Assembly: GCA_947179485.1 (NCBI GenBank)
Contig: OX359248.1
Location: 57,732,386 to 57,796,385, forward strand
Direction: 5' to 3'
Source: Allacma fusca
Lineage: Eukaryota; Arthropoda; Collembola; Symphypleona; Sminthuridae
DNA: 64,000 nucleotides
Within the stretch, counting starts at the first letter, position 1. Each line of letters opens with the position of its first letter. A program made the position numbers and the translations under genes. This document shows positions 1 through 64,000 of the stretch, piece by piece. The notes beneath the pieces are model-generated. The model was not told the origin of the DNA. It made no database searches and saw only the letters and a program-made list of their open reading frames with translations.

Positions 1-305
1 GAATTTGAGATGAATCGAAAAACTTTCGGAAAAGCGATGAAAATGAATTGACGCCCACGTCACTTTTTAAGGTGTTTGCCGAACTCGTCCGAATCTCCTC
101 AAGTTTTGGGATTACACTCGGGCAGTCTCCCAAAGCTCAATTCGCGAATTTTATATGAATCAAAAAACTAAACAGCGATGAAAATGAGGTCTCGTTGCTG
201 TAGTCACTGTTAAACGTGTTTGCTAAGCTCGTCCGAATCTGTTTAAACTTTGGTTATACACTCGGGCTGGCTGCCTAAGCTCAATTCTCGAATTTGATAT
301 GAATC
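1..305 (+). repeat. Partial unit at the left edge: E tail, F', G'
   Basis: The window opens inside an E monomer (1-49), continues with F' (50-193, with CAATTCGCGAATTTT) and G' (194-305, with TGTAGTCACTG and CTCGGGCTGG). As elsewhere, this F'-G' pair leads into a long anchor. G' has one private change, CTGTTAAACG for CTGTTTAACG. Confidence 0.92.
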
Positions 306-539
306 CATGAGTCATAGCAGGCAATCCCAAATATTGTACTGCACCTGACAGTCCCTTTCACTTTTGTTACTCGGCCTTTTGCCATAACTGCAAAGGCCCT
401 TTCTCTTTTCCATACACTTGAATTTTGTCTCTTGAGGAGGTTACTCTGCCCAATTCACTCCTGAATAAACTTTTACTACGGTTTTTATACTTTGTTGAAA
501 TCAATTCATTTTACAAATCATTTCTTGATAATTCATCAC
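306..539 (+). repeat. 234-bp anchor core, reference copy
   Basis: This segment has no resemblance to the 145-bp or 105-bp families and occurs once per unit, 32 times in all. It begins CATGAGTCATAGCAGGC, contains a GGCC-tipped inverted repeat, then a T/C-rich tract and an AT-rich right half ending at CATCAC. I do not recognise a transposon end, target duplication, tail or RNA gene in it. The 68-codon frame across its right half starts with TTG and continues into the 105-bp repeats, so it is not a credible gene. It may be a relic of an ancient insertion, but that is a guess. Confidence 0.85.
373..398. other. Inverted repeat (potential hairpin) in the anchor core
   Basis: GGCCTTTTGC pairs with GCAAAGGCC across a 7-base loop, giving 9 base pairs with one bulged T. 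It recurs at the same place in the anchors. Long-form anchors have loop CATAACT except the one at 49627, while that anchor and the short forms have CATAAAT. It is followed by a T/C-rich stretch. Nothing shows that it is transcribed, so a terminator or processing role is unproven. Confidence 0.6.
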
Positions 540-1032
540 AAAAAGCAACAGCGCAATTTGCAAATCATATGAGAACAGCGCTGCATGGCCCAGGAACGTT
601 CCAAGCTCATCGTGAAAATTCATTTTAGAGGTGCTGCGACGATTACAAGCTAGTTGGGGAAAATGCATATCGGGTAAATACAGCTCTGCGTGGCCCGGAA
701 ACGTTCCAAGCTCAACCTGAAACTTCGTTTGGTATGTGCTGGGACTGTTAACAGCAAGTTGGGTCAATTTTCTAATCAGGTAAATACATCTCTGTATGGC
801 GCGGGAACGTTCTAACGTCGACGGCAAACGTCGTTTGGGAGGTTTTGGGACTATTAAAAGCAACTGCGCAATTTGGACATCATGTGAATACACGTTGTAT
901 GGCCTGGAAACGTTCTATGCTCATCGTCAAACTTCGTTTGGAAGTTGTTTCGATGGTTTAAAGCAAGTTGGGGCAATTTTCTAATCAGGTAAATCCAGCT
1001 CCCTATGGCCCGGGAACGTGCTAACCTCACCT
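540..1032 (+). repeat. 105-bp repeat run, long form (4.7 copies), reference
   Basis: Five copies at 540-644, 645-750, 751-853, 854-959 and 960-1032 share GGAACGTTC or GGAAACGTTCC at spacings of 105, 106, 103 and 106 bp. Copies 1 and 4 also share AAAAGCAAC and GCGCAATTTG. Copies are visibly more diverged from each other than the same copy is between units. The last copy stops at CTCACCT, where monomer A begins. This five-copy form occurs in only five anchors. Confidence 0.9.
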
Positions 1033-1176
1033 GACGTTTAGGTCACTTGTCAAGGTGTTTGACGAACTCGTCCAAATCTCTAAACTTTGTGAATACACAC
1101 GGGCAGTCTGCTAAAGCTCAATTCTCGAATTTAAGACGCATCGAAAAACTAAACATGGCGATGAAAATGAGGTCTG
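1033..1176 (+). repeat. Reference monomer class A (first after the anchor)
   Basis: Class A is 144 bp and always follows the last 105-bp repeat of the anchor. Diagnostic words are GACGTTTAGGTCACTTGTC at the start, GACGAACTCGTCC in the middle and ACACACGGGCAGTCTGC later. It is one of four classes that keep the dyad TGAC-N6-GTCA at the monomer start. Its left edge is the point where similarity to the 105-bp family ends and similarity to class C begins. Confidence 0.9.
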
Positions 1177-1319
1177 GTTGCTATGGTCACTGTTTAACGT
1201 GTTTGCTGAGCTCATCCGAATCTCTTTAAACTTTGATATTACACTCAGGCAGTCTTCCAAAGCTCAATTCTCAAATTTGAGATGAATCTAAAAACTTTAA
1301 ACAGCGATGAACATGAAGT
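1177..1319 (+). repeat. Reference monomer class B
   Basis: Class B is 143 bp and occurs once per unit, always after A. It is marked by GTTGCTATGGTCACTG at its start, GCTGAGCTCATCCGAATC, and CACTCAGGCAGTCTTCC. Its start has lost the dyad found in A, D, E and F. In units near 36-43 kb it carries a private CTAAACTATG variant. In units at about 29 and 31 kb it has a 2-bp deletion. Confidence 0.9.
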
Positions 1320-1464
1320 GGCGTTTAGGACACTTTTTTTGGTGTTTGCCGAACTCTTCCGAATCTCCTTAAACTTTGTTAATACACTCGGGCAGTCTGC
1401 CAAAGCTCAATTCTCAAATTTTAGATGAATTGATAATTTTTGGAAAAAGCAATGAAAATGACGT
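1320..1464 (+). repeat. Reference monomer class C (first member of the mobile C-D-E trimer)
   Basis: Class C is 145 bp, marked by GGCGTTTAGGACAC, GCCGAACTCTTCCGAATCTC and a right part containing GATAATTTTTGGAAAAAGC. This copy reads CTTTGTTAATACAC where most read CTTTGGTAATACAC. A second form, called C' here, has the same body but begins with the F-type hexamer (GACGCCCACGTCAC). C' occurs when a C follows an E or a recombinant junction. Confidence 0.9.
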
Positions 1465-1607
1465 GACGCTCAGGTCACTTTTTAAGATGTTTACCGAACT
1501 CGACCGAATCTCCTCAAGTTTTGGAATTACACTCTTGCAGGCTGCCAAAGCTCAATTCTCGAATTTCAGATGAATTGAAAAACTGGAAAAAGCGATGAAA
1601 ATGACGT
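1465..1607 (+). repeat. Reference monomer class D (second member of the C-D-E trimer)
   Basis: Class D is 143-145 bp and is marked by GTTTACCGAACTCGACCG. Its main form reads CACTCTTGCAGGCTGCC. A second form, D', reads CACTCGGGCAGGCTGCC and precedes an E through a junction two bases shorter (AAAAACTGGAAAAAG). A third form, D'', reads CACTCGGGCAGTCTGCC. This copy has the CTCTTGCAGG body but the shortened right edge, so it is itself a mosaic. Confidence 0.88.
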
Positions 1608-1620
1608 GACGCTCAGGTCA
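1607..1620. other. Recurrent dyad TGAC-N6-GTCA at the monomer boundary
   Basis: TGACGCTCAGGTCA here is one instance. In the same block class A has TGACGTTTAGGTCA (1032-1045), class D repeats the E form (1464-1477) and class F has TGACGCCCACGTCA (1752-1765). The two arms are kept while the six central bases differ, which is what a two-fold-symmetric binding site would look like. Classes B, C and G have lost one arm. A protein partner is not known. Confidence 0.5.
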
Positions 1621-1752
1621 CTTTTTAAGGTGTTTGCTGAACTCGTCTGAATCTGCTTAAACTTTGGAAATAAACTCGGGCATTCTGCCAAAGCACAATT
1701 CTCGAATTTGAGAGGAATCGAAAAACTTTCGGAAAAGCGATGAAAATGAATT
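1608..1752 (+). repeat. Reference monomer class E (third member of the C-D-E trimer)
   Basis: Class E is 145 bp and is marked by GCTGAACTCGTCTGAATCTG, GGAAATAAACTCGGGCATTC and the unusual CAAAGCACAATTCTCG. Its right part is either the C-like GAATCTAAAAACTTTAAACA (when another C follows) or the F-like GAATCGAAAAACTTTCGG (when F or C' follows). Here it carries GAGAGGAATCG, a variant found mainly before the final F of expanded units. Confidence 0.9.
1721..1746. other. Helically phased A-tracts in the monomer
   Basis: A5 at 1721-1725, A4 at 1733-1736 and A4 at 1743-1746 have centres about 11.5 and 10 bp apart, close to one helical turn. A T5 run follows in the next monomer. Similar runs occur at this position in most classes. 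Phased A-tracts are known to cause intrinsic DNA curvature, so the array is probably regularly bent. That inference has not been computed here. Confidence 0.5.
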
Positions 1753-1894
1753 GACGCCCACGTCACTTTTTAAGGTGTTTGCCGAACTCGTCCGAATCTC
1801 CTCAAGTTTTGGGATTACACGGGCAGTCTCCCAAAGCTCAATTCTCGAATTTTATATGAATCAAAAAACTAAACAGCGATGAAAATGAGGTCTC
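1753..1894 (+). repeat. Reference monomer class F
   Basis: Class F starts with GACGCCCACGTCAC and contains GCCGAACTCGTCCGAATC, GGGATTACACTCGGG and GCAGTCTCCCAAAGC. It occurs once per unit, always before G. This copy has lost two bases and reads GGATTACACGGGCAG, a deletion otherwise seen only near 51574. A sister form, F', has CAATTCGCGAATTTTATATG and is tied to long anchors. Confidence 0.9.
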
Positions 1895-2006
1895 GTTGCT
1901 GTGGTCACTGTTTAACGTGTTTGCTAAGCTCGTCCGAATCTGTTTAAACTTTGGTTATACACTCGGACTGGCTGCCTAAGCTCAATTCTCGAATTTGATA
2001 TGAATC
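1895..2006 (+). repeat. Reference monomer class G (truncated at the anchor)
   Basis: Class G is about 112 bp because similarity to the 145-bp family stops at GATATGAATC, where the anchor begins. It is marked by GTTGCTGTGGTCACTG, GCTAAGCTCGTCCGAATC and CTCGGACTGGCTGCCTAAGC. The form before long anchors, G', reads TGTAGTCACTG and CTCGGGCTGG. The truncation point is the same before all 32 anchors, so the anchor joined the array once and spread with it. Confidence 0.9.
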
Positions 2007-5000
2007 CATGAGTCATAGCAGGCAATCCCAAATATTGTACTGCACCTGACAGTCCCTTTCACTTTTGTTACTCGGCCTTTTGCCATAAATGCAAAGGCCC
2101 TTTCTCTTTTCCATACACTTGAATTTTGTCTCTTGAGGAGGTTACTCTGCCCAATTCATTCCTGAATAAACTTTTACTACGGTTTTTATACTTTGTTGAA
2201 ATCAATTCATTTTACAAATTATTTCTTGATAATTCATCACAAAAAGCAACAGCGCAATTTGCAAATCATATGAGAACAGCGATGCATGGCCCGGAAACGT
2301 TCCAAGCTCATCGTGAAAATTCATTTTAGAGGTGCTGCGACGATTACAAGCTAGTTGGGGAAAATGCATATCGGGTAAATACAGCTCTGCGTGGCCCGGA
2401 AACGTTCCAAGCTCAACCTGAAACTTCGTTTGGTATGTGCTGGGACTGTTAACCGCAAGTTGGGTCAATTTTCTAATCAGGTAAATCCAGCTCCCTATGG
2501 CCCGGGAACGTTCTAACCTCACCTGACGTTTAGGTCACTTGTCAAGGTGTTTGACGAACTCGTCCCAATCTCTAAACTTTGTGAATACACACGGGCAGTC
2601 TGCTAAAGCTCAATTCTCGAATTTAAGACGCATCGAAAAACTAAACATGGCGATGAAAATGAGGTCTGGTTGCTATGGTCACTGTTTAACGTGTTTGCTG
2701 AGCTCATCCGAATCTCATTAAACTTTGATATTACACTCAGGCAGTCTTCCAAAGCTCAATTCTCAAATTTGAGATGAATCTAAAAACTTTAAACAGCGAT
2801 GAACATGAAGTGGCGTTTAGGACACTTTTTTAGGTGTTTGCCGAACTCTTCCGAATCTCCTTAAACTTTGGTAATACACTCGGGCAGTCTGCCAAAGCTC
2901 AATTCTCAAATTTTAGATGAATTGATAATTTTTGGAAAAAGCAATGAAAATGACGTGACGCTCAGGTCACTTTTTAAGGTGTTTACCGAACTCGACCGAA
3001 TCTCCTCAAGTTTTGGAATTACACTCTTGCAGGCTGCCAAAGCTCAATTCTCGAATTTCAGATGAATTGAAAAACTTTGGAAAAAGCGATGAAAATGACG
3101 TGACGCTCAGGTCACTTTTTAAGGTGTTTGCTGAACTCGTCTGAATCTGCTTAAACTTTGGAAATAAACTCGGGCATTCTGCCAAAGCACAATTCTCGAA
3201 TTTGAGATGAATCTAAAAACTTTAAACAGCGATGAACATGAAGTGGCGTTTAGGACACTTTTTTTGGTGTTTGCCGAACTCTTCCGAATCTCCTTAAACT
3301 TTGGTAATACACTCGGGCAGTCTGCCAAAGCTCAATTCTCAAATTTTAGATGAATTGATAATTTTTGGAAAAAGCAATGAAAATGACGTGACGCTCAGGT
3401 CACTTTTTAAGGTGTTTACCGAACTCGACCGAATCTCCTCAAGTTTTGGAATTACACTCTTGCAGGCTGCCAAAGCTCAATTCTCGAATTTCAGATGAAT
3501 TGAAAAACTTTGGAAAAAGCGATGAAAATGACGTGACGCTCAGGTCACTTTTTAAGGTGTTTGCTGAACTCGTCTGAATCTGCTTAAACTTTGGAAATAA
3601 ACTCGGGCATTCTGCCAAAGCACAATTCTCGAATTTGAGATGAATCTAAAAACTTTAAACAGCGATGAACATGAAGTGGCGTTTAGGACACTTTTTTAGG
3701 TGTTTGCCGAACTCTTCCGAATCTCCTTAAACTTTGGTAATACACTCGGGCAGTCTGCCAAAGCTCAATTCTCAAATTTTAGATGAATTGATAATTTTTG
3801 GAAAAAGCAATGAAAATGACGTGACGCTCAGGTCACTTTTTAAGGTGTTTACCGAACTCGACCGAATCTCCTCAAGTTTTGGAATTACACTCTTGCAGGC
3901 TGCCAAAGCTCAATTCTCGAATTTCAGATGAATTGAAAAACTTTGGAAAAAGCGATGAAAATGACGTGACGCTCAGGTCACTTTTTAAGGTGTTTGCTGA
4001 ACTCGTCTGAATCTGCTTAAACTTTGGAAATAAACTCGGGCATTCTGCCAAAGCACAATTCTCGAATTTGAGATGAATCGAAAAACTTTCGGAAAAGCGA
4101 TGAAAATGAATTGACGCCCACGTCACTTTTTAAGGTGTTTGCCGAACTCTTCCGAATCTCCTTAAACTTTGGTAATACACTCGGGCAGTCTGCCAAAGCT
4201 CAATTCTCAAATTTTAGATGAATTGATAATTTTTGGAAAAAGCAATGAAAATGACGTGACGCTCAGGTCACTTTTTAAGGTGTTTACCGAACTCGACCGA
4301 ATCTCATCAAGTTTTGGAATTACACTCGGGCAGGCTGCCAAAGCTCAATTCTCGAATTTCAGATGAATTGAAAAACTGGAAAAAGCGATGAAAATGACGT
4401 GACGCTCAGGTCACTTTTTAAGGTGTTTGCTGAACTCGTCTGAATCTGCTTAAACTTTGGAAATAAACTCGGGCATTCTGCCAAAGCACAATTCTCGAAT
4501 TTGAGATGAATCTAAAAACTTTAAACAGCGATGAACATGAAGTGGCGTTTAGGACACTTTTTTTGGTGTTTGCCGAACTCTTCCGAATCTCCTTAAACTT
4601 TGGTAATACACTCGGGCAGTCTGCCAAAGCTCAATTCTCAAATTTTAGATGAATTGATAATTTTTGGAAAAAGCAATGAAAATGACGTGACGCTCAGGTC
4701 ACTTTTTAAGGTGTTTGCTGAACTCGTCTGAATCTGCTTAAACTTTGGAAATAAACTCGGGCATTCTGCCAAAGCACAATTCTCGAATTTGAGATGAATC
4801 GAAAAACTTTCGGAAAAGCGATGAAAATGAATTGACGCCCACGTCACTTTTTAAGGTGTTTGCCGAACTCTTCCGAATCTCCTTAAACTTTGGTAATACA
4901 CTCGGGCAGTCTGCCAAAGCTCAATTCTCAAATTTTAGATGAATTGATAATTTTTGGAAAAAGCAATGAAAATGACGTGACGCTCAGGTCACTTTTTAAG

Positions 5001-6390
5001 GTGTTTACCGAACTCGACCGAATCTCCTCAAGTTTTGGAATTACACTCTTGCAGGCTGCCAAAGCTCAATTCTCGAATTTCAGATGAATTGAAAAACTTT
5101 GGAAAAAGCGATGAAAATGACGTGACGCTCAGGTCACTTTTTAAGGTGTTTGCTGAACTCGTCTGAATCTGCTTAAACTTTGGAAATAAACTCGGGCATT
5201 CTGCCAAAGCACAATTCTCGAATTTGAGATGAATCTAAAAACTTTAAACAGCGATGAACATGAAGTGGCGTTTAGGACACTTTTTTTGGTGTTTGCCGAA
5301 CTCTTCCGAATCTCCTTAAACTTTGGTAATACACTCGGGCAGTCTGCCAAAGCTCAATTCTCAAATTTTAGATGAATTGATAATTTTTGGAAAAAGCAAT
5401 GAAAATGACGTGACGCTCAGGTCACTTTTTAAGGTGTTTACCGAACTCGACCGAATCTCCTCAAGTTTTGGAATTACACTCTTGCAGGCTGCCAAAGCTC
5501 AATTCTCGAATTTCAGATGAATTGAAAAACTTTGGAAAAAGCGATGAAAATGACGTGACGCTCAGGTCACTTTTTAAGGTGTTTGCTGAACTCGTCTGAA
5601 TCTGCTTAAACTTTGGAAATAAACTCGGGCATTCTGCCAAAGCACAATTCTCGAATTTGAGATGAATCGAAAAACTTTCGGAAAAGCGATGAAAATGAAT
5701 TGACGCCCACGTCACTTTTTAAGGTGTTTGCCGAACTCTTCCGAATCTCCTTAAACTTTGGTAATACACTCGGGCAGTCTGCCAAAGCTCAATTCTCAAA
5801 TTTTAGATGAATTGATAATTTTTGGAAAAAGCAATGAAAATGACGTGACGCTCAGGTCACTTTTTAAGGTGTTTACCGAACTCGACCGAATCTCATCAAG
5901 TTTTGGAATTACACTCGGGCAGGCTGCCAAAGCTCAATTCTCGAATTTCAGATGAATTGAAAAACTGGAAAAAGCGATGAAAATGACGTGACGCTCAGGT
6001 CACTTTTTAAGGTGTTTGCTGAACTCGTCTGAATCTGCTTAAACTTTGGAAATAAACTCGGGCATTCTGCCAAAGCACAATTCTCGAATTTGAGAGGAAT
6101 CGAAAAACTTTCGGAAAAGCGATGAAAATGAATTGACGCCCACGTCACTTTTTAAGGTGTTTGCCGAACTCGTCCGAATCTCCTCAAGTTTTGGGATTAC
6201 ACTCGGGCAGTCTCCCAAAGCTCAATTCTCGAATTTTATATGAATCAAAAAACTAAACAGCGATGAAAATGAGGTCTCGTTGCTGTGGTCACTGTTTAAC
6301 GTGTTTGCTAAGCTCGTCCGAATCTGTTTAAACTTTGGTTATACACTCGGACTGGCTGCCTAAGCTCAATTCTCGAATTTGATATGAATC
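2007..6390 (+). repeat. Unit 2: short anchor + 27 monomers, 4384 bp (largest)
   Basis: Order: A-B, C-D-E three times, C'-D'-E, C-E, C'-D-E, C-D-E, C'-D'-E, F-G. The trimer thus occurs eight times, once without its D (C at 4544-4688 joins E at 4689). C' marks trimers that follow an E with the F-like right edge, so there is a 6-to-9-monomer pattern above the trimer. The anchor (2007-2524) has the private change CAATTCATTCC. Confidence 0.92.
2241..2524 (+). repeat. 105-bp repeat run, short form (2.7 copies), reference
   Basis: Copies 1 and 2 match the long form. They are followed directly by the start of long-form copy 3 fused to the end of long-form copy 5. The fusion lies in CAATTTTCTAATCAGGTAAA, which is identical in copies 3 and 5. 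The result is 209 bp shorter, exactly copies of 103 and 106 bp. This is the common form, present in 27 anchors. Confidence 0.9.
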
Positions 6391-8317
6391 CATGAGTCAT
6401 AGCAGGCAATCCCAAATATTGTACTGCACCTGACAGTCCCTTTCACTTTTGTTACTCGGCCTTTTGCCATAAATGCAAAGGCCCTTTCTCTTTTCCATAC
6501 ACTTGAATTTTGTCTCTTGAGGAGGTTACTCTGCCCAATTCACTCCTGAATAAACTTTTACTACGGTTTTTATACTTTGTTGAAATCAATTCATTTTACA
6601 AATTATTTCTTGATAATTCATCACAAAAAGCAACAGCGCAATTTGCAAATCATATGAGAACAGCGATGCATGGCCCGGAAACGTTCCAAGCTCATCGTGA
6701 AAATTCATTTTAGAGGTGCTGCGACGATTACAAGCTAGTTGGGGAAAATGCATATCGGGTAAATACAGCTCTGCGTGGCCCGGAAACGTTCCAAGCTCAA
6801 CCTGAAACTTCGTTTGGTATGTGCTGGGACTGTTAACCGCAAGTTGGGTCAATTTTCTAATCAGGTAAATCCAGCTCCCTATGGCCCGGGAACGTTCTAA
6901 CCTCACCTGACGTTTAGGTCACTTGTCAAGGTGTTTGACGAACTCGTCCCAATCTCTAAACTTTGTGAATACACACGGGCAGTCTGCTAAAGCTCAATTC
7001 TCGAATTTGACGCATCGAAAAACTAAACATGGCGATGAAAATGAGGTCTGGTTGCTATGGTCACTGTTTAACGTGTTTGCTGAGCTCATCCGAATCTCTT
7101 TAAACTTTGATATTACACTCAGGCAGTCTTCCAAAGCTCAATTCTCAAATTTGAGATGAATCTAAAAACTTTAAACAGCGATGAACATGAAGTGGCGTTT
7201 AGGACACTTTTTTAGGTGTTTGCCGAACTCTTCCGAATCTCCTTAAACTTTGGTAATACACTCGGGCAGTCTGCCAAAGCTCAATTCTCAAATTTTAGAT
7301 GAATTGATAATTTTTGGAAAAAGCAATGAAAATGACGTGACGCTCAGGTCACTTTTTAAGGTGTTTACCGAACTCGACCGAATCTCCTCAAGTTTTGGAA
7401 TTACACTCTTGCAGGCTGCCAAAGCTCAATTCTCGAATTTCAGATGAATTGAAAAACTTTGGAAAAAGCGATGAAAATGACGTGACGCTCAGGTCACTTT
7501 TTAAGGTGTTTGCTGAACTCGTCTGAATCTGCTTAAACTTTGGAAATAAACTCGGGCATTCTGCCAAAGCACAATTCTCGAATTTGAGATGAATCGAAAA
7601 ACTTTCGGAAAAGCGATGAAAATGAATTGACGCCCACGTCACTTTTTAAGGTGTTTGCCGAACTCTTCCGAATCTCCTTAAACTTTGGTAATACACTCGG
7701 GCAGTCTGCCAAAGCTCAATTCTCAAATTTTAGATGAATTGATAATTTTTGGAAAAAGCAATGAAAATGACGTGACGCTCAGGTCACTTTTTAAGGTGTT
7801 TACCGAACTCGACCGAATCTCATCAAGTTTTGGAATTACACTCGGGCAGGCTGCCAAAGCTCAATTCTCGAATTTCAGATGAATTGAAAAACTGGAAAAA
7901 GCGATGAAAATGACGTGACGCTCAGGTCACTTTTTAAGGTGTTTGCTGAACTCGTCTGAATCTGCTTAAACTTTGGAAATAAACTCGGGCATTCTGCCAA
8001 AGCACAATTCTCGAATTTGAGAGGAATCGAAAAACTTTCGGAAAAGCGATGAAAATGAATTGACGCCCACGTCACTTTTTAAGGTGTTTGCCGAACTCGT
8101 CCGAATCTCCTCAAGTTTTGGGATTACACTCGGGCAGTCTCCCAAAGCTCAATTCTCGAATTTTATATGAATCAAAAAACTAAACAGCGATGAAAATGAG
8201 GTCTCGTTGCTGTGGTCACTGTTTAACGTGTTTGCTAAGCTCGTCCGAATCTGTTTAAACTTTGGTTATACACTCGGACTGGCTGCCTAAGCTCAATTCT
8301 CGAATTTGATATGAATC
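6391..8317 (+). repeat. Unit 3: short anchor + 10 monomers, 1927 bp
   Basis: Order: A-B-C-D-E-C'-D'-E-F-G. A has a private 2-bp deletion (CGAATTTGACGCATC near 7004-7018), which accounts for the 2-bp difference from 1929-bp units. The last E has the GAGAGGAATCG variant. Confidence 0.92.
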
Positions 8318-10391
8318 CATGAGTCATAGCAGGCAATCCCAAATATTGTACTGCACCTGACAGTCCCTTTCACTTTTGTTACTCGGCCTTTTGCCATAAA
8401 TGCAAAGGCCCTTTCTCTTTTCCATACACTTGAATTTTGTCTCTTGAGGAGGTTACTCTGCCCAATTCACTCCTGAATAAACTTTTACTACGGTTTTTAT
8501 ACTTTGTTGAAATCAATTCATTTTACAAATTATTTCTTGATAATTCATCACAAAAAGCAACAGCGCAATTTGCAAATCATATGAGAACAGCGATGCATGG
8601 CCCGGAAACGTTCCAAGCTCATCGTGAAAATTCATTTTAGAGGTGCTGCGACGATTACAAGCTAGTTGGGGAAAATGCATATCGGGTAAATACAGCTCTG
8701 CGTGGCCCGGAAACGTTCCAAGCTCAACCTGAAACTTCGTTTGGTATGTGCTGGGACTGTTAACCGCAAGTTGGGTCAATTTTCTAATCAGGTAAATCCA
8801 GCTCCCTATGGCCCGGGAACGTTCTAACCTCACCTGACGTTTAGGTCACTTGTCAAGGTGTTTGACGAACTCGTCCCAATCTCTAAACTTTGTGAATACA
8901 CACGGGCAGTCTGCTAAAGCTCAATTCTCGAATTTAAGACGCATCGAAAAACTAAACATGGCGATGAAAATGAGGTCTGGTTGCTATGGTCACTGTTTAA
9001 CGTGTTTGCTGAGCTCATCCGAATCTCTTTAAACTTTGATATTACACTCAGGCAGTCTTCCAAAGCTCAATTCTCAAATTTGAGATGAATCTAAAAACTT
9101 TAAACAGCGATGAACATGAAGTGGCGTTTAGGACACTTTTTTTGGTGTTTGCCGAACTCTTCCGAATCTCCTTAAACTTTGGTAATACACTCGGGCAGTC
9201 TGCCAAAGCTCAATTCTCAAATTTTAGATGAATTGATAATTTTTGGAAAAAGCAATGAAAATGACGTGACGCTCAGGTCACTTTTTAAGGTGTTTACCGA
9301 ACTCGACCGAATCTCCTCAAGTTTTGGAATTACACTCTTGCAGGCTGCCAAAGCTCAATTCTCGAATTTCAGATGAATTGAAAAACTTTGGAAAAAGCGA
9401 TGAAAATGACGTGACGCTCAGGTCACTTTTTAAGGTGTTTGCTGAACTCGTCTGAATCTGCTTAAACTTTGGAAATAAACTCGGGCATTCTGCCAAAGCA
9501 CAATTCTCGAATTTGAGATGAATCTAAAAACTTTAAACAGCGATGAACATGAAGTGGCGTTTAGGACACTTTTTTTGGTGTTTGCCGAACTCTTCCGAAT
9601 CTCCTTAAACTTTGGTAATACACTCGGGCAGTCTGCCAAAGCTCAATTCTCAAATTTTAGATGAATTGATAATTTTTGGAAAAAGCAATGAAAATGACGT
9701 GACGCTCAGGTCACTTTTTAAGGTGTTTACCGAACTCGACCGAATCTCCTCAAGTTTTGGAATTACACTCTTGCAGGCTGCCAAAGCTCAATTCTCGAAT
9801 TTCAGATGAATTGAAAAACTTTGGAAAAAGCGATGAAAATGACGTGACGCTCAGGTCACTTTTTAAGGTGTTTGCTGAACTCGTCTGAATCTGCTTAAAC
9901 TTTGGAAATAAACTCGGGCATTCTGCCAAAGCACAATTCTCGAATTTGAGATGAATCGAAAAACTTTCGGAAAAGCGATGAAAATGAATTGACGCCCACG
10001 TCACTTTTTAAGGTGTTTGCCGAACTCTTCCGAATCTCCTTAAACTTTGGTAATACACTCGGGCAGTCTGCCAAAGCTCAATTCTCAAATTTTAGATGAA
10101 TCGAAAAACTTTCGGAAAAGCGATGAAAATGAATTGACGCCCACGTCACTTTTTAAGGTGTTTGCCGAACTCGTCCGAATCTCCTCAAGTTTTGGGATTA
10201 CACTCGGGCAGTCTCCCAAAGCTCAATTCTCGAATTTTATATGAATCAAAAAACTAAACAGCGATGAAAATGAGGTCTCGTTGCTGTGGTCACTGTTTAA
10301 CGTGTTTGCTAAGCTCGTCCGAATCTGTTTAAACTTTGGTTATACACTCGGACTGGCTGCCTAAGCTCAATTCTCGAATTTGATATGAATC
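8318..10391 (+). repeat. Unit 4: short anchor + 11 monomers, 2074 bp
   Basis: Order: A-B-C-D-E-C-D-E-C'-F-G. The third trimer is cut to its C', whose right part switches at about 10095 from the C pattern (TTTTAGATGAAT) to the E pattern (CGAAAAACTTTCGG) before F. One unequal exchange between C and E right halves explains the loss of D and E. Confidence 0.9.
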
Positions 10392-54121: not shown

Positions 54122-56193
54122 CATGAGTCATAGCAGGCAATCCCAAATATTGTACTGCACCTGACAGTCCCTTTCACTTTTGTTACTCGGCCTTTTGCCA
54201 TAAATGCAAAGGCCCTTTCTCTTTTCCATACACTTGAATTTTGTCTCTTGAGGAGGTTACTCTGCCCAATTCACTCCTGAATAAACTTTTACTACGGTTT
54301 TTATACTTTGTTGAAATCAATTCATTTTACAAATTATTTCTTGATAATTCATCACAAAAAGCAACAGCGCAATTTGCAAATCATATGAGAACAGCGATGC
54401 ATGGCCCGGAAACGTTCCAAGCTCATCGTGAAAATTCATTTTAGAGGTGCTGCGACGATTACAAGCTAGTTGGGGAAAATGCATATCGGGTAAATACAGC
54501 TCTGCGTGGCCCGGAAACGTTCCAAGCTCAACCTGAAACTTCGTTTGGTATGTGCTGGGACTGTTAACCGCAAGTTGGGTCAATTTTCTAATCAGGTAAA
54601 TCCAGCTCCCTATGGCCCGGGAACGTTCTAACCTCACCTGACGTTTAGGTCACTTGTCAAGGTGTTTGACGAACTCGTCCCAATCTCTAAACTTTGTGAA
54701 TACACACGGGCAGTCTGCTAAAGCTCAATTCTCGAATTTAAGACGCATCGAAAAACTAAACATGGCGATGAAAATGAGGTCTGGTTGCTATGGTCACTGT
54801 TTAACGTGTTTGCTGAGCTCATCCGAATCTCTTTAAACTTTGATATTACACTCAGGCAGTCTTCCAAAGCTCAATTCTCAAATTTGAGATGAATCTAAAA
54901 ACTTTAAACAGCGATGAACATGAAGTGGCGTTTAGGACACTTTTTTTGGTGTTTGCCGAACTCTTCCGAATCTCCTTAAACTTTGTTAATACACTCGGGC
55001 AGTCTGCCAAAGCTCAATTCTCAAATTTTAGATGAATTGATAATTTTTGGAAAAAGCAATGAAAATGACGTGACGCTCAGGTCACTTTTTAAGGTGTTTA
55101 CCGAACTCGACCGAATCTCCTCAAGTTTTGGAATTACACTCTTGCAGGCTGCCAAAGCTCAATTCTCGAATTTCAGATGAATTGAAAAACTTTGGAAAAA
55201 GCGATGAAAATGAATTGACGCCCACGTCACTTTTTAAGGTGTTTGCTGAACTCGTCTGAATCTGCTTAAACTTTGGAAATAAACTCGGGCATTCTGCCAA
55301 AGCACAATTCTCGAATTTGAGATGAATCTAAAAACTTTAAACAGCGATGAACATGAAGTGGCGTTTAGGACACTTTTTTTGGTGTTTGCCGAACTCTTCC
55401 GAATCTCCTTAAACTTTGGTAATACACGCGGGCAGTCTGCCAAAGCTCAATTCTCAAATTTTAGATGAATTGATAATTTTTGGAAAAAGCAATGAAAATG
55501 ACGTGACGCCCACGTCACTTTTTAAGGTGTTTGCCGAACTCTTCCGAATCTCCTTAAACTTTGGTAATACACTCGGGCAGTCTGCCAAAGCTCAATTCTC
55601 AAATTTTAGATGAATTGATAATTTTTGGAAAAAGCAATGAAAATGACGTGACGCTCAGGTCACTTTTTAAGGTGTTTACCGAACTCGACCGAATCTCATC
55701 AAGTTTTGGAATTACACTCGGGCAGGCTGCCAAAGCTCAATTCTCGAATTTCAGATGAATTGAAAAACTGGAAAAAGCGATGAAAATGACGTGACGCTCA
55801 GGTCACTTTTTAAGGTGTTTGCTGAACTCGTCTGAATCTGCTTAAACTTTGGAAATAAACTCGGGCATTCTGCCAAAGCACAATTCTCGAATTTGAGAGG
55901 AATCGAAAAACTTTCGGAAAAGCGATGAAAATGAATTGACGCCCACGTCACTTTTTAAGGTGTTTGCCGAACTCGTCCGAATCTCCTCAAGTTTTGGGAT
56001 TACACTCGGGCAGTCTCCCAAAGCTCAATTCTCGAATTTTATATGAATCAAAAAACTAAACAGCGATGAAAATGAGGTCTCGTTGCTGTGGTCACTGTTT
56101 AACGTGTTTGCTAAGCTCGTCCGAATCTGTTTAAACTTTGGTTATACACTCGGACTGGCTGCCTAAGCTCAATTCTCGAATTTGATATGAATC
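54122..56193 (+). repeat. Unit 28: short anchor + 11 monomers, 2072 bp
   Basis: Order: A-B-C-D-E-C-C'-D'-E-F-G. It has the C-C' join at about 55500-55518 but only one trimer after it. A private change AATACACGCGGGCAG lies near 55421. The first C has GTTAATACAC. Confidence 0.92.
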
Positions 56194-58555
56194 CATGAGT
56201 CATAGCAGGCAATCCCAAATATTGTACTGCACCTGACAGTCCCTTTCACTTTTGTTACTCGGCCTTTTGCCATAAATGCAAAGGCCCTTTCTCTTTTCCA
56301 TACACTTGAATTTTGTCTCTTGAGGAGGTTACTCTGCCCAATTCACTCCTGAATAAACTTTTACTACGGTTTTTATACTTTGTTGAAATCAATTCATTTT
56401 ACAAATTATTTCTTGATAATTCATCACAAAAAGCAACAGCGCAATTTGCAAATCATATGAGAACAGCGATGCATGGCCCGGAAACGTTCCAAGCTCATCG
56501 TGAAAATTCATTTTAGAGGTGCTGCGACGATTACAAGCTAGTTGGGGAAAATGCATATCGGGTAAATACAGCTCTGCGTGGCCCGGAAACGTTCCAAGCT
56601 CAACCTGAAACTTCGTTTGGTATGTGCTGGGACTGTTAACCGCAAGTTGGGTCAATTTTCTAATCAGGTAAATCCAGCTCCCTATGGCCCGGGAACGTTC
56701 TAACCTCACCTGACGTTTAGGTCACTTGTCAAGGTGTTTGACGAACTCGTCCCAATCTCTAAACTTTGTGAATACACACGGGCAGTCTGCTAAAGCTCAA
56801 TTCTCGAATTTAAGACGCATCGAAAAACTAAACATGGCGATGAAAATGAGGTCTGGTTGCTATGGTCACTGTTTAACGTGTTTGCTGAGCTCATCCGAAT
56901 CTCTTTAAACTTTGATATTACACTCAGGCAGTCTTCCAAAGCTCAATTCTCAAATTTGAGATGAATCTAAAAACTTTAAACAGCGATGAACATGAAGTGG
57001 CGTTTAGGACACTTTTTTTGGTGTTTGCCGAACTCTTCCGAATCTCCTTAAACTTTGTTAATACACTCGGGCAGTCTGCCAAAGCTCAATTCTCAAATTT
57101 TAGATGAATTGATAATTTTTGGAAAAAGCAATGAAAATGACGTGACGCTCAGGTCACTTTTTAAGGTGTTTACCGAACTCGACCGAATCTCCTCAAGTTT
57201 TGGAATTACACTCTTGCAGGCTGCCAAAGCTCAATTCTCGAATTTCAGATGAATTGAAAAACTTTGGAAAAAGCGATGAAAATGAATTGACGCCCACGTC
57301 ACTTTTTAAGGTGTTTGCTGAACTCGTCTGAATCTGCTTAAACTTTGGAAATAAACTCGGGCATTCTGCCAAAGCACAATTCTCGAATTTGAGATGAATC
57401 TAAAAACTTTAAACAGCGATGAACATGAAGTGGCGTTTAGGACACTTTTTTTGGTGTTTGCCGAACTCTTCCGAATCTCCTTAAACTTTGGTAATACACT
57501 CGGGCAGTCTGCCAAAGCTCAATTCTCAAATTTTAGATGAATTGATAATTTTTGGAAAAAGCAATGAAAATGACGTGACGCCCACGTCACTTTTTAAGGT
57601 GTTTGCCGAACTCTTCCGAATCTCCTTAAACTTTGGTAATACACTCGGGCAGTCTGCCAAAGCTCAATTCTCAAATTTTAGATGAATTGATAATTTTTGG
57701 AAAAAGCAATGAAAATGACGTGACGCTCAGGTCACTTTTTAAGGTGTTTACCGAACTCGACCGAATCTCCTCAAGTTTTGAAATTACACTCTTGCAGGCT
57801 GCCAAAGCTCAATTCTCGAATTTCAGATGAATTGAAAAACTTTGGAAAAAGCGATGAAAATGAATTGACGCCCACGTCACTTTTTAAGGTGTTTGCCGAA
57901 CTCTTCCGAATCTCCTTAAACTTTGGTAATACACTCGGGCAGTCTGCCAAAGCTCAATTCTCAAATTTTAGATGAATTGATAATTTTTGGAAAAAGCAAT
58001 GAAAATGACGTGACGCTCAGGTCACTTTTTAAGGTGTTTACCGAACTCGACCGAATCTCATCAAGTTTTGGAATTACACTCGGGCAGGCTGCCAAAGCTC
58101 AATTCTCGAATTTCAGATGAATTGAAAAACTGGAAAAAGCGATGAAAATGACGTGACGCTCAGGTCACTTTTTAAGGTGTTTGCTGAACTCGTCTGAATC
58201 TGCTTAAACTTTGGAAATAAACTCGGGCATTCTGCCAAAGCACAATTCTCGAATTTGAGAGGAATCGAAAAACTTTCGGAAAAGCGATGAAAATGAATTG
58301 ACGCCCACGTCACTTTTTAAGGTGTTTGCCGAACTCGTCCGAATCTCCTCAAGTTTTGGGATTACACTCGGGCAGTCTCCCAAAGCTCAATTCTCGAATT
58401 TTATATGAATCAAAAAACTAAACAGCGATGAAAATGAGGTCTCGTTGCTGTGGTCACTGTTTAACGTGTTTGCTAAGCTCGTCCGAATCTGTTTAAACTT
58501 TGGTTATACACTCGGACTGGCTGCCTAAGCTCAATTCTCGAATTTGATATGAATC
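56194..58555 (+). repeat. Unit 29: short anchor + 13 monomers, 2362 bp
   Basis: Order: A-B-C-D-E-C-C'-D-C'-D'-E-F-G, the same plan as unit 27. The C-C' join lies at about 57571-57590, and the D after it reads TTTTGAAATTACACTC. Consecutive C-body monomers from 57488 to 58120 are spaced exactly 145 bp. Confidence 0.92.
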
Positions 58556-60484
58556 CATGAGTCATAGCAGGCAATCCCAAATATTGTACTGCACCTGACA
58601 GTCCCTTTCACTTTTGTTACTCGGCCTTTTGCCATAAATGCAAAGGCCCTTTCTCTTTTCCATACACTTGAATTTTGTCTCTTGAGGAGGTTACTCTGCC
58701 CAATTCACTCCTGAATAAACTTTTACTACGGTTTTTATACTTTGTTGAAATCAATTCATTTTACAAATTATTTCTTGATAATTCATCACAAAAAGCAACA
58801 GCGCAATTTGCAAATCATATGAGAACAGCGATGCATGGCCCGGAAACGTTCCAAGCTCATCGTGAAAATTCATTTTAGAGGTGCTGCGACGATTACAAGC
58901 TAGTTGGGGAAAATGCATATCGGGTAAATACAGCTCTGCGTGGCCCGGAAACGTTCCAAGCTCAACCTGAAACTTCGTTTGGTATGTGCTGGGACTGTTA
59001 ACCGCAAGTTGGGTCAATTTTCTAATCAGGTAAATCCAGCTCCCTATGGCCCGGGAACGTTCTAACCTCACCTGACGTTTAGGTCACTTGTCAAGGTGTT
59101 TGACGAACTCGTCCCAATCTCTAAACTTTGTGAATACACACGGGCAGTCTGCTAAAGCTCAATTCTCGAATTTAAGACGCATCGAAAAACTAAACATGGC
59201 GATGAAAATGAGGTCTGGTTGCTATGGTCACTGTTTAACGTGTTTGCTGAGCTCATCCGAATCTCTTTAAACTTTGATATTACACTCAGGCAGTCTTCCA
59301 AAGCTCAATTCTCAAATTTGAGATGAATCTAAAAACTTTAAACAGCGATGAACATGAAGTGGCGTTTAGGACACTTTTTTTGGTGTTTGCCGAACTCTTC
59401 CGAATCTCCTTAAACTTTGGTAATACACTCGGGCAGTCTGCCAAAGCTCAATTCTCAAATTTTAGATGAATTGATAATTTTTGGAAAAAGCAATGAAAAT
59501 GACGTGACGCCCACGTCACTTTTTAAGGTGTTTGCCGAACTCTTCCGAATCTCCTTAAACTTTGGTAATACACTCGGGCAGTCTGCCAAAGCTCAATTCT
59601 CAAATTTTAGATGAATTGATAATTTTTGGAAAAAGCAATGAAAATGACGTGACGCTCAGGTCACTTTTTAAGGTGTTTACCGAACTCGACCGAATCTCCT
59701 CAAGTTTTGAAATTACACTCTTGCAGGCTGCCAAAGCTCAATTCTCGAATTTCAGATGAATTGAAAAACTTTGGAAAAAGCGATGAAAATGAATTGACGC
59801 CCACGTCACTTTTTAAGGTGTTTGCCGAACTCTTCCGAATCTCCTTAAACTTTGGTAATACACTCGGGCAGTCTGCCAAAGCTCAATTCTCAAATTTTAG
59901 ATGAATTGATAATTTTTGGAAAAAGCAATGAAAATGACGTGACGCTCAGGTCACTTTTTAAGGTGTTTACCGAACTCGACCGAATCTCATCAAGTTTTGG
60001 AATTACACTCGGGCAGGCTGCCAAAGCTCAATTCTCGAATTTCAGATGAATTGAAAAACTGGAAAAAGCGATGAAAATGACGTGACGCTCAGGTCACTTT
60101 TTAAGGTGTTTGCTGAACTCGTCTGAATCTGCTTAAACTTTGGAAATAAACTCGGGCATTCTGCCAAAGCACAATTCTCGAATTTGAGAGGAATCGAAAA
60201 ACTTTCGGAAAAGCGATGAAAATGAATTGACGCCCACGTCACTTTTTAAGGTGTTTGCCGAACTCGTCCGAATCTCCTCAAGTTTTGGGATTACACTCGG
60301 GCAGTCTCCCAAAGCTCAATTCTCGAATTTTATATGAATCAAAAAACTAAACAGCGATGAAAATGAGGTCTCGTTGCTGTGGTCACTGTTTAACGTGTTT
60401 GCTAAGCTCGTCCGAATCTGTTTAAACTTTGGTTATACACTCGGACTGGCTGCCTAAGCTCAATTCTCGAATTTGATATGAATC
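58556..60484 (+). repeat. Unit 30: short anchor + 10 monomers, 1929 bp
   Basis: Order: A-B-C-C'-D-C'-D'-E-F-G. It equals unit 29 with the first C-D-E trimer removed, so the C-C' join (about 59500-59519) follows B-C directly. Its first C reads GGTAATACAC, as expected if the deletion removed the GTTAATACAC copy. Confidence 0.92.
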
Positions 60485-62846
60485 CATGAGTCATAGCAGG
60501 CAATCCCAAATATTGTACTGCACCTGACAGTCCCTTTCACTTTTGTTACTCGGCCTTTTGCCATAAATGCAAAGGCCCTTTCTCTTTTCCATACACTTGA
60601 ATTTTGTCTCTTGAGGAGGTTACTCTGCCCAATTCACTCCTGAATAAACTTTTACTACGGTTTTTATACTTTGTTGAAATCAATTCATTTTACAAATTAT
60701 TTCTTGATAAGTCATCACAAAAAGCAACAGCGCAATTTGCAAATCATATGAGAACAGCGATGCATGGCCCGGAAACGTTCCAAGCTCATCGTGAAAATTC
60801 ATTTTAGAGGTGCTGCGACGATTACAAGCTAGTTGGGGAAAATGCATATCGGGTAAATACAGCTCTGCGTGGCCCGGAAACGTTCCAAGCTCAACCTGAA
60901 ACTTCGTTTGGTATGTGCTGGGACTGTTAACCGCAAGTTGGGTCAATTTTCTAATCAGGTAAATCCAGCTCCCTATGGCCCGGGAACGTTCTAACCTCAC
61001 CTGACGTTTAGGTCCCTTGTCAAGGTGTTTGACGAACTCGTCCCAATCTCTAAACTTTGTGAATACACACGGGCAGTCTGCTAAAGCTCAATTCTCGAAT
61101 TTAAGACGCATCGAAAAACTAAACATGGCGATGAAAATGAGGTCTGGTTGCTATGGTCACTGTTTAACGTGTTTGCTGAGCTCATCCGAATCTCTTTAAA
61201 CTTTGATATTACACTCAGGCAGTCTTCCAAAGCTCAATTCTCAAATTTGAGATGAATCTAAAAACTTTAAACAGCGATGAACATGAAGTGGCGTTTAGGA
61301 CACTTTTTTTGGTGTTTGCCGAACTCTTCCGAATCTCCTTAAACTTTGTTAATACACTGGGGCAGTCTGCCAAAGCTCAATTCTCAAATTTTAGATGAAT
61401 TGATAATTTTTGGAAAAAGCAATGAAAATGACGTGACGCTCAGGTCACTTTTTAAGGTGTTTACCGAACTCGACCGAATCTCCTCAAGTTTTGGAATTAC
61501 ACTCTTGCAGGCTGCCAAAGCTCAATTCTCGAATTTCAGATGAATTGAAAAACTTTGGAAAAAGCGATGAAAATGAATTGACGCCCACGTCACTTTTTAA
61601 GGTGTTTGCTGAACTCGTCTGAATCTGCTTAAACTTTGGAAATAAACTCGGGCATTCTGCCAAAGCACAATTCTCGAATTTGAGATGAATCTAAAAACTT
61701 TAAACAGCGATGAACATGAAGTGGCGTTTAGGACACTTTTTTTGGTGTTTGCCGAACTCTTCCGAATCTCCTTAAACTTTGGTAATACACTCGGGCAGTC
61801 TGCCAAAGCTCAATTCTCAAATTTTAGATGAATTGATAATTTTTGGAAAAAGCAATGAAAATGACGTGACGCCCACGTCACTTTTTAAGGTGTTTGCCGA
61901 ACTCTTCCGAATCTCCTTAAACTTTGGTAATACACTCGGGCAGTCTGCCAAAGCTCAATTCTCAAATTTTAGATGAATTGATAATTTTTGGAAAAAGCAA
62001 TGAAAATGACGTGACGCTCAGGTCACTTTTTAAGGTGTTTACCGAACTCGACCGAATCTCCTCAAGTTTTGAAATTACACTCTTGCAGGCTGCCAAAGCT
62101 CAATTCTCGAATTTCAGATGAATTGAAAAACTTTGGAAAAAGCGATGAAAATGAATTGACGCCCACGTCACTTTTTAAGGTGTTTGCCGAACTCTTCCGA
62201 ATCTCCTTAAACTTTGGTAATACACTCGGGCAGTCTGCCAAAGCTCAATTCTCAAATTTTAGATGAATTGATAATTTTTGGAAAAAGCAATGAAAATGAC
62301 GTGACGCTCAGGTCACTTTTTAAGGTGTTTACCGAACTCGACCGAATCTCCTCAAGTTTTGGAATTACACTCGGGCAGTCTGCCAAAGCTCAATTCTCGA
62401 ATTTCAGATTAATTGAAAAACTGGAAAAAGCGATGAAAATGACGTGACGCTCAGGTCACTTTTTAAGGTGTTTGCTGAACTCGTCTGAATCTGCTTAAAC
62501 TTTGGAAATAAACTCGGGCATTCTGCCAAAGCACAATTCTCGAATTTGAGAGGAATCGAAAAACTTTCGGAAAAGCGATGAAAATGAATTGACGCCCACG
62601 TCACTTTTTAAGGTGTTTGCCGAACTCGTCCGAATCTCCTCAAGTTTTGGGATTACACTCGGGCAGTCTCCCAAAGCTCAATTCGCGAATTTTATATGAA
62701 TCAAAAAACTAAACAGCGATGAAAATGAGGTCTCGTTGCTGTGGTCACTGTTTAACGTGTTTGCTAAGCTCGTCCGAATCTGTTTAAACTTTGGTTATAC
62801 ACTCGGACTGGCTGCCTAAGCTCAATTCTCGAATTTGATATGAATC
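60485..62846 (+). repeat. Unit 31: short anchor + 13 monomers, 2362 bp
   Basis: Order: A-B-C-D-E-C-C'-D-C'-D''-E-F-G. D'' has CAGATTAATTGAAAAAC near 62404, shared with unit 24. F has CAATTCGCGAATT before an ordinary G, shared with unit 27. Private changes are TTGATAAGTCATC in the anchor, GGTCCCTTGTC in A (breaking the dyad) and CACTGGGGCAGTC in C. Confidence 0.92.
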
Positions 62847-64000
62847 CATGAGTCATAGCAGGCAATCCCAAATATTGTACTGCACCTGACAGTCCCTTTC
62901 ACTTTTGTTACTCGGCCTTTTGCCATAAATGCAAAGGCCCTTTCTCTTTTCCATACACTTGAATTTTGTCTCTTGAGGAGGTTACTCTGCCCAATTCACT
63001 CCTGAATAAACTTTTACTACGGTTTTTATACTTTGTTGAAATCAATTCATTTTACAAATTATTTCTTGATAATTCATCACAAAAAGCAACAGCGCAATTT
63101 GCAAATCATATGAGAACAGCGATGCATGGCCCGGAAACGTTCCAAGCTCATCGTGAAAATTCATTTTAGAGGTGCTGCGACGATTACAAGCTAGTTGGGG
63201 AAAATGCATATCGGGTAAATACAGCTCTGCGTGGCCCGGAAACGTTCCAAGCTCAACCTGAAACTTCGTTTGGTATGTGCTGGGACTGTTAACCGCAAGT
63301 TGGGTCAATTTTCTAATCAGGTAAATCCAGCTCCCTATGGCCCGGGAACGTTCTAACCTCATCTGACGTTTAGGTCACTTGTCAAGGTGTTTGACGAACT
63401 CGTCCCAATCTCTAAACTTTGTGAATACACACGGGCAGTCTGCTAAAGCTCAATTCTCGAATTTAAGACGCATCGAAAAACTAAACATGGCGATGAAAAT
63501 GAGGTCTGGTTGCTATGGTCACTGTTTAACGTGTTTGCTGAGCTCATCCGAATCTCTTTAAACTTTGATATTACACTCAGGCAGTCTTCTAAAGCTCAAT
63601 TCTCAAATTTGAGATGAATCTAAAAACTTTAAACAGCGATGAACATGAAGTGGCGTTTAGGACACTTTTTTTGGTGTTTGCCGAACTCTTCCGAATCTCC
63701 TTAAACTTTGTTAATACACTCGGGCAGTCTGCCAAAGCTCAATTCTCAAATTTTAGATGAATTGATAATTTTTGGAAAAAGCAATGAAAATGACGTGACG
63801 CTCAGGTCACTTTTTAAGGTGTTTACCGAACTCGACCGAATCTCCTCAAGTTTTGGAATTACACTCTTGCAGGCTGCCAAAGCTCAATTCTCGAATTTCA
63901 GATGAATTGAAAAACTTTGAAAAAAGCGATGAAAATGAATTGACGCCCACGTCACTTTTTAAGGTGTTTGCCGAACTCTTCCGAATCTCCTTAAACTTTG
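62847..64000 (+). repeat. Unit 32: short anchor + A-B-C-D-C' to the right edge (partial)
   Basis: The anchor is 62847-63364, followed by A, B, C (with GTTAATACAC), D and the start of C' before the window ends. Private changes are CCTCATCTGACG at the anchor end, AGTCTTCTAAAGC in B and ACTTTGAAAAAAGCG in D. The D-to-C' join without an E resembles units 24 and 27. Confidence 0.92.

Follow-up and report, generated by a model that had tools for sequence, protein, structure and literature searches.

A higher-order 145-bp satellite with an apparently captured Copia LTR piece on chromosome 4 of the springtail Allacma fusca

Background

What kind of chromosomal region is a long satellite array near one end of chromosome 4 of the springtail Allacma fusca, and how did a stretch of foreign sequence come to recur in its repeat units? 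The window, that is, the whole stretch of DNA analysed here, is 64,000 bp long (chromosome 4, 57732386-57796385) and lies about 1 Mb from the chromosome end. It consists of monomers of 145 bp interrupted at intervals by an anchor, formed by a 234-bp core and copies of a 105-bp repeat. The reading that we favour, with a probability of roughly 0.7, is that the window belongs to a (peri)centromeric 145-bp satellite of chromosome 4, designed like alpha satellite, that has captured a piece of the long terminal repeat (LTR) of a Ty1/Copia retrotransposon. The genome scanned comprised 392.74 Mb in 91 contigs; its chromosomes 1, 2, 3, 4, X1 and X2 measure 81.9, 75.61, 66.08, 58.81, 55.59 and 48.07 Mb, respectively (PMC10427803).

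Organisation of the array

A total of 329 plus-strand monomers and 32 anchors cover 63,952 of the 64,000 bases of the window, 42 weak minus-strand monomer matches (21.9-24.5 bits, 119-129 bases) having been removed before counting. Clustered at a 10% cut-off, the monomers fell into the seven classes that the first-pass annotation had described, A to G, and into an additional class H, a recombinant with the left part of C and the right part of E. The class counts were A 32, B 33, C 67, D 65, E 59, F 32, G 32 and H 8, together with one monomer cut by the window end. Identity is 97-99.5% inside classes and 56-90% across classes, the value of 90% being that of C against the recombinant H.

The other elements of the architecture proposed in that annotation were recovered as well. 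On self-comparison, the identity of the window peaked at shifts of 145 (0.459), 433 (0.416) and 2362 (0.414), as expected from nested periods; one base-shuffled copy reached at most 0.266, and chance periodicity was rejected. The anchor does punctuate the array 32 times, always on the plus strand, with start-to-start spacings of 1207-4384 bp. The internal C-D-E trimer does expand and contract: the 31 complete units display 15 distinct class strings, among which plain ABCDEFG occurs 8 times, the interval from AB to FG holds 1 to 23 monomers of the kinds C, D, E and H (B once), and unit lengths differ by whole trimers of 433 bp. With diverged monomers in the fixed order ABCDEFG, trimer variation and homogeneous units, the array is thus organised as a higher-order repeat.

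Over 119-129 bases the monomer also shows a weak likeness to its own reverse complement, perhaps the trace of an eroded dyad symmetry. Six single monomers folded no better than shuffled ones (z-scores of -0.50 to 1.05 in all six), and an RNA family search over positions 1-4000 of the window gave a single match with an E-value of 0.97, at 25.3 bits against a curated threshold of 50.

Identity of the anchor

The anchor core was searched in the genome with a 20-base word at 0 mismatches, which, beyond the chromosome-4 array, listed 16 places distributed over all six chromosomes. We fetched 11 dispersed loci holding 14 of these 16 places. In all 11, likeness to the anchor (82-95%) begins at its position 1 or 2 and reaches position 234; it stops there in 8 of them and at 235-238 in the other 3. 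The dispersed sequences have the termini of an LTR, TGTGAT on the left and ATCACA on the right, separated by 637-847 bp in 10 of the 12 spans measured and by 885 and 1175 bp in the other two; the LTR start word was not found in loci L057 and L058 at the threshold used. Tandem repeats of 30 bp inside the LTR vary in number. Perfect 5-bp target duplications were seen in L052 (GATTT) and L054 (ATCTA), and four of the five bases agree in L051.

Coding sequence and spacing point the same way. Next to the LTR in L050, L053 and L059 stands TGGTAGC..., taken here as a primer-binding site, with open frames beyond it. The L050 frame that was scanned (L050:3-2135, minus strand) matched PF14223 (E 4.7e-19), PF22936, PF13976, PF00665 (E 4.3e-11) and PF25597, which are Copia gag, integrase and zinc-knuckle families. 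Moreover, 19 neighbouring pairs among 60 LTR starts lie 6.5-7.0 kb apart, a spacing that full-length copies with two LTRs are expected to give. From these sequence features, the 234-bp core is identified as the 3' end of a Ty1/Copia LTR that is also present dispersed in the genome. The first-pass annotation had called the anchor unrelated in composition to the satellite. This stands with respect to the 145-bp monomer, to which kinship of the core or of the 105-bp repeat was rejected (best E ~0.2, among the matches listed), but the core does have a known origin, in a retrotransposon. No phage relative of the anchor was found.

Two features of the Copia family were observed in passing. Immediately ahead of an LTR in L059, a minus-strand open frame of 434 amino acids (L059:4698-5999) looks envelope-like by eye; nothing in Pfam matched it at E 0.01, and neither the three PHROG matches (E 0.044-0.063) nor the single PDB chain (E 0.72) was convincing. 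On chromosome 2 (51156022-51176506), four LTR starts on one strand are spaced by 6757, 6757 and 6944 bp, apparently tandem elements sharing LTRs.

The 105-bp repeat makes up the remainder of the anchor. Anchors are 725 bp long in 5 of 32 cases and 515-516 bp long in 27, and the short form corresponds to the long one minus 209 bp, an in-phase loss of two 105-bp copies (one pair aligned). Inside the anchor compared the 105-bp copies are about 72% alike, whereas the anchors are 99% alike on average, the lowest pair being at 96.7%. The copies within an array are thus not alike, as they should be in an independent satellite with its own homogenisation, and the suggestion that every unit embeds a second, independent tandem family had to be given up. 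The copies look like an old frozen passenger, the fossil of an insertion site. A 105-bp word with 0-1 mismatch was found on chromosome 4 only, among the matches listed. X2 has an array, about 2.2 kb long, of a related repeat (66-70% alike); it directly adjoins an LTR of the Copia family found in the anchors, the contact being, as judged by eye, at a different point of the repeat.

Junctions and probable capture of the LTR piece

The left junction, at which GATATGAATCC abuts ATGAGTCATAGC, is identical in all 32 window anchors. Outside the window, in four loci at 57.51 (L014), 58.04 (L031), 58.13 (L015) and 58.30 Mb (L019) of chromosome 4, a span of about 0.8 Mb, all 12 anchors whose LTR start is visible have the same junction; likeness to the window anchors is 93.5% for the one at 58.30 Mb. 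Since the left junction is shared by all of these anchors, one founding event is the simplest explanation. On the right, the junction position is likewise constant across the window, and 5 of the 32 anchors show base changes there. The number of anchors was estimated at about 200, from 227 forward core-word matches minus the dispersed copies and the approximately 20 expected from the control.

The two edges of the LTR piece differ in nature. On the left the piece does not stop at an LTR terminus: compared with the dispersed LTRs, it begins immediately past a TATA-like stretch, at a place where the satellite (ATATGAATCC) and the LTR (ATATGCC) have a few bases in common. The right edge is the true LTR end and abuts the 105-bp repeat, so that the element would have been inserted in such repeats. 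Most simply, the LTR piece and the 105-bp copies would have joined the 145-bp satellite once.

We infer the following order of events. A Ty1/Copia element would first have been inserted into an array of 105-bp repeats. The last 234 bp of its LTR, with the adjoining 105-bp copies, would then have been fused to a 145-bp monomer at the short shared sequence. Finally, the composite would have been amplified along chromosome 4 to about 200 copies, presumably with unequal exchange or a similar turnover as the motor; the same turnover would slide the C-D-E trimer in and out and would have deleted two 105-bp copies from most window anchors.

The same LTR has met the satellite elsewhere. On chromosome 1 (L059, 22936700-22942700) it alternates with stretches of 145-bp satellite in at least 3 tandem copies, with core-word spacings of 992, 872 and 842 bp; the tandem copies lie between parts of longer ones. 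There the LTR is complete, and this would therefore be a second composite of the two parts, made independently.

Distribution of the satellite and of the Copia family

With an 18-base monomer word and up to 2 mismatches, 8007 matches were counted in forward and 2844 in reverse orientation; the reversed control gave 13 and 15, respectively. The word recovers 296 of the 329 window monomers and 41 of 69, 36 of 70, 28 of 34 and 18 of 38 monomers in four other samples; as it misses many monomers, the genome counts are lower bounds. Among the matches listed, 145-bp arrays occur on five of the six chromosomes: on chromosome 1 at 22.53-22.58 Mb, on chromosome 2 as short stretches at 50.546-50.548 and 51.37 Mb (1 of 1136 candidates scored), on chromosome 3, likewise as short stretches, at 63.21-63.39 Mb (6 of 1029 candidates scored), on chromosome 4 at 57.51-58.13 and 58.29-58.53 Mb (samples within these spans) and on X1 at 54.58-54.87 Mb. 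The higher-order organisation differs among chromosomes, with a 2779-bp repeat (self-identity 0.86) in a 6-kb sample of chromosome 1 against units of 1207-4384 bp in the window. At a 20% cut-off, two monomer clusters are common to chromosomes 1 and 4 and 33 X1 monomers form a cluster of their own. The family would thus have two or more types of monomer, and its organisation differs among the arrays sampled on chromosomes 1, 4 and X1.

The Copia family was mapped by its LTR starts, using the first 27 LTR bases with up to 3 mismatches and listing all matches. This gave 60 matches, and none for the control. Within 1 Mb of a mapped 145-bp array, which amounts to 3.1% of the genome, lie 49 of the 60 starts, a figure that is partly circular because the arrays of chromosomes 2 and 3 were first met via the LTR. 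On chromosomes 1, X1 and 4 alone, the proportion is 18 of 19. The remaining starts comprise 6 in a single X2 cluster at 0.59-1.23 Mb and 5 elsewhere.

An alpha-like satellite on at least five of six chromosomes, with a Copia family concentrated around it, resembles the centromeric regions described elsewhere. We therefore consider that the satellite and the Copia family together probably mark the centromeric regions of A. fusca, the centromere function of these sites being presumed from their composition and placement.

Weighing of the explanations

Several observations weigh against the reading of the window as part of a (peri)centromeric satellite with a captured LTR piece. The human CENP-B box, a feature of primate alpha satellite, had 0 matches in the window against 0.46 expected, and 2 against 10.1 expected when one mismatch was permitted. 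Limited searches found no 145-bp array on X2, which is represented by its Copia cluster alone. On X1 the Tandem Repeats Finder (TRF) period of 1160 bp (93% match) goes with an irregular class string. Concerning the capture, no clean target duplication was seen in L049, in L056 or around the two satellite-flanked LTRs of L059, and no intact 105-bp array was seen on chromosome 4 in the samples taken along the locus. In one anchor (L014:7150-7478, within 57517090-57517478), 105-bp copies join a G-kind monomer directly, without LTR piece; this is likely a deletion and could be another arrangement. Further points on this side are given below with the rivals that they favour.

The first of these concerns the manner of amplification. 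The divergence of units in their fixed parts is independent of the distance between them (Mantel r -0.03, p 0.64; adjacent units p 0.39), so that local exchange alone is not supported by the substitutions, and 28 of the 31 units are distinct and yet about 99% alike in fixed parts. This is what might be expected if the composite array had been built by rolling-circle amplification of an excised circle rather than by unequal exchange. The structural variants speak for exchange in place: identical unit types are adjacent in 8 pairs versus 2.9 in shuffles (p 0.0016), the H and CC unit variants cluster along the window (p 0.0004), and local runs of unit types as well as a recombinant class such as H are both expected from it. 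Taken together, the two sets of results suggest to us that exchange has acted across the entire window and that most substitutions are older than the structural variants; we regard the rolling circle as a somewhat unlikely origin of the array.

Placement bears on a second rival, according to which the family is a subtelomeric or other heterochromatic satellite without any centromere role, in which Copia accumulates where selection and recombination are weak. Four of the six 145-bp/Copia sites are near scaffold ends, the chromosome-4 block stops about 0.3 Mb short of the end of its scaffold, and a 12-bp satellite fills the last 10 kb of that scaffold. The sites of chromosome 1 (22.5-23.0 of 81.9 Mb) and chromosome 2 (50.5-51.4 of 75.6 Mb) are internal, however, so that with two internal and four near-terminal sites a purely subtelomeric nature is unlikely. 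The LTR moreover forms one cluster per chromosome, leaving 5 of 60 starts elsewhere, and stays close to the array on the three chromosomes that escape the circularity noted above. Taken together, these data make the subtelomeric alternative unlikely, and we retain the (peri)centromeric reading.

A third rival holds that the anchor is a selected functional element, which might for instance act as a boundary or promoter or provide a poly(A)/termination signal, and so shape transcription of the satellite. There is one anchor per window unit, in a single orientation and at 99% average likeness, and AATAAA is present in all 32 cores. Amplification alone, however, gives such likeness among anchors. 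A TATA-like stretch of the dispersed LTRs lies immediately upstream of the segment that was captured, which therefore lacks the likely promoter; 27 of the 32 anchors have lost two 105-bp copies, one L014 anchor lacks the LTR piece, and in the right block of the chromosome-4 locus the samples at 58.40 (L020) and 58.50 Mb (L021) contain no anchor. A function of the anchor thus appears improbable. Finally, wrong joining or multiplication of repeat copies during assembly is very improbable: satellites pose difficulties for assembly and the present one comprises 744 contigs in 95 scaffolds (PMC10427803), but the window contains no N, the high-fidelity (HiFi) read assembly has a quality value (QV) of 58.7 (PMC10427803), and one junction recurs over about 0.8 Mb with anchor divergence of up to 6.5%.

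Arrangement of the units along the window

All features below are on the plus strand and in window positions; anchors are short (516 bp, with the LTR end and 2.4 copies of the 105-bp repeat) unless described otherwise. The window opens with the monomers of a unit end (..FG, 1-306) and with anchor 1 (307-1031), which is long (725 bp): its positions 307-540 are the 3' 234 bp of the Copia LTR and 541-1031 are 4.4 copies of the 105-bp repeat. A plain ABCDEFG (1032-2007) and anchor 2 (2008-2523) precede the longest unit, ABCDECDECDECDECECDECDECDEFG (2524-6391), a trimer expansion closed by anchor 3 (6392-6907). ABCDECDEFG (6908-8318) follows, then anchor 4 (8319-8834), ABCDECDEHFG (8835-10392) and anchor 5 (10393-10908). 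Two further expanded units, ABCDECDECDECDEFG (10909-13187) and ABCDECDECDECDECDEFG (13704-16417), are separated by anchor 6 (13188-13703) and followed by anchor 7 (16418-16933), after which ABCDECDEFG (16934-18346) runs up to anchor 8 (18347-18862).

Next come several units with the C/E recombinant H. ABHDEFG (18863-19842) ends at anchor 9 (19843-20358); ABHDECDECDEFG is found twice, at 20359-22204 before anchor 10 (22205-22720) and at 22721-24566 before anchor 11 (24567-25082); a second ABHDEFG (25083-26062) reaches anchor 12 (26063-26578), and ABHDBCDECDEFG (26579-28421) reaches anchor 13 (28422-28937). Two copies of ABCDECDEFG, at 28938-30348 and 30865-32275, are divided by anchor 14 (30349-30864) and followed by anchor 15 (32276-32791). 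ABHCDEFG (32792-33913) then leads to anchor 16 (33914-34429).

Plain ABCDEFG occupies most of the following stretch. Its copies lie at 34430-35409, before the long anchor 17 (725 bp, 35410-36134); at 36135-37112, before anchor 18 (37113-37628); at 37629-38604, before anchor 19 (38605-39120); at 39121-40096, before anchor 20 (40097-40612); at 40613-41592, before the long anchor 21 (725 bp, 41593-42317); at 42318-43293, before anchor 22 (43294-43809); and at 43810-44789, before the long anchor 23 (725 bp, 44790-45514). ABHCDEFG (45515-46636) with anchor 24 (46637-47152) and ABCDCDEFG (47153-48420) with anchor 25, of 515 bp (48421-48935), come before the shortest unit, ABCFG (48936-49627), which ends at the long anchor 26 (725 bp, 49628-50352).

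ABCDECDEFG (50353-51762) and anchor 27 (51763-52278) lead into the units of the CC kind. ABCDECCDCDEFG occurs three times, at 52279-54122, 56711-58556 and 61002-62847, closed by anchors 28 (54123-54638), 30 (58557-59072) and 32 (62848-63363), respectively. Between these, ABCDECCDEFG (54639-56194) is closed by anchor 29 (56195-56710) and ABCCDCDEFG (59073-60485) by anchor 31 (60486-61001). The window ends with ABCD and a cut monomer (63364-64000), in a unit that continues beyond it.

Flanking sequences on chromosome 4

Just right of the window (57808052-57816292), monomers are 79-80% alike to a query from chromosome 3, which equals the likeness to it of the other chromosome-3 copies listed (6 of 1029 candidates scored); this might reflect exchange between chromosomes 3 and 4. 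At the right edge of the array, L015:4710-7742 contains a match to the BEL/Pao peptidase PF05380. Just right of the anchored array (L016:1306-7774, in 58140001-58150000), about 6 kb of mitochondrial-like DNA contain frames resembling, by eye and in the invertebrate mitochondrial code, cox2, atp6, cox3, nad5, nad4 and cytb; the nad4 frame, the one mitochondrial-like frame scanned, matched PF00361 (E 2.6e-63). Left of the array (L012 and L011, 57480001-57500000), a run of long frames has the look of large Maverick-type elements by eye, and a Pfam scan of three long frames of L012 gave no match. A plant host was rejected, in part because frames flanking the array are arthropod-like. The 12-bp satellite of the final 10 kb (L009, 58800163-58810162) is TAGTTAAGCTTG, in 835 copies with 88% match; it is a possible subtelomeric or telomere-substitute sequence, and L009 contained no runs of the telomere repeats tested.

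Significance and comparison with known systems

The first-pass annotation had not recognised the family, and we likewise found no match to a described satellite, repeat words of 19-21 bases being absent from the open-access literature searched. In that literature, searched by title and start of abstract, no description of a springtail satellite or centromere was found, and the main text of the A. fusca genome papers contains no word starting with centromer or satellite. The present results provide sequence-level candidates for springtail centromeric regions, on five chromosomes through the satellite and the Copia LTRs and on X2 through the Copia cluster alone. They also provide, in the chromosome-4 array, a clear and datable case of a retrotransposon fragment carried in the higher-order unit of a satellite.

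In A. fusca, paternal chromosomes are considered to be eliminated, and male embryos lose two X chromosomes (PMC10427803, PMC9630974). Chromosome-specific satellite probes would make a possible role of centromere DNA in this elimination directly testable. One may go further and suppose that the sites are the centromeres themselves, one 145-bp block per chromosome invaded by one centromere-seeking Copia family, and that the chromosome-4 LTR fragment is a fixed block of the unit of an active centromere. The X1 monomers form their own cluster and limited searches found no 145-bp array on X2, and therefore the DNA might help to tell the eliminated X chromosomes from autosomes. To this whole proposal we give little credence.

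Among known systems, alpha satellite is the nearest in design. Both have monomers of nearly nucleosome size and of at least two types, chromosome-specific organisation, expansion or contraction by whole monomers, and a divergence among the monomers of a unit that far exceeds the divergence between units. Unlike alpha satellite, the A. fusca window has no CENP-B box, and each of its units includes part of an LTR together with portions of a second repeat. The likeness is one of organisation alone, and no relation in sequence is claimed.

Satellites carrying transposon pieces are a known kind (PMC12628747, PMC8122249), of which the 145-bp satellite is a member that we did not find described in the literature searched; examples cited in PMC8122249 are satellites of parasitoid wasps that bear insertions and, in Arabidopsis, a 500-bp repeat related to pAL1. 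In these as in A. fusca, a foreign stretch has become part of the amplified unit. The A. fusca piece differs by sitting in a multi-monomer unit of variable length, accompanied by 2.4 or 4.4 frozen 105-bp copies.

For the placement of the Copia family, a parallel is offered by Phytophthora sojae, in which a Copia-like transposon (CoLT) is enriched in CENP-A chromatin (PMC7082073). In both species Copia elements are clustered at centromeric regions, presumed ones in A. fusca, and sparse elsewhere. The centromeres of P. sojae were defined by CENP-A chromatin immunoprecipitation (ChIP), whereas those of A. fusca are presumed, and the likeness described here is one of placement. In Lathyrus sativus, finally, satellites linked to LTR retrotransposons expand mainly in the primary constrictions (PMC7004042), and A. 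fusca shares with it the expansion of retrotransposon-linked repeats in what would be such regions. The repeats that expand in L. sativus are tandem repeats internal to the element, whereas in A. fusca a truncated LTR rides in the unit of an unrelated satellite.

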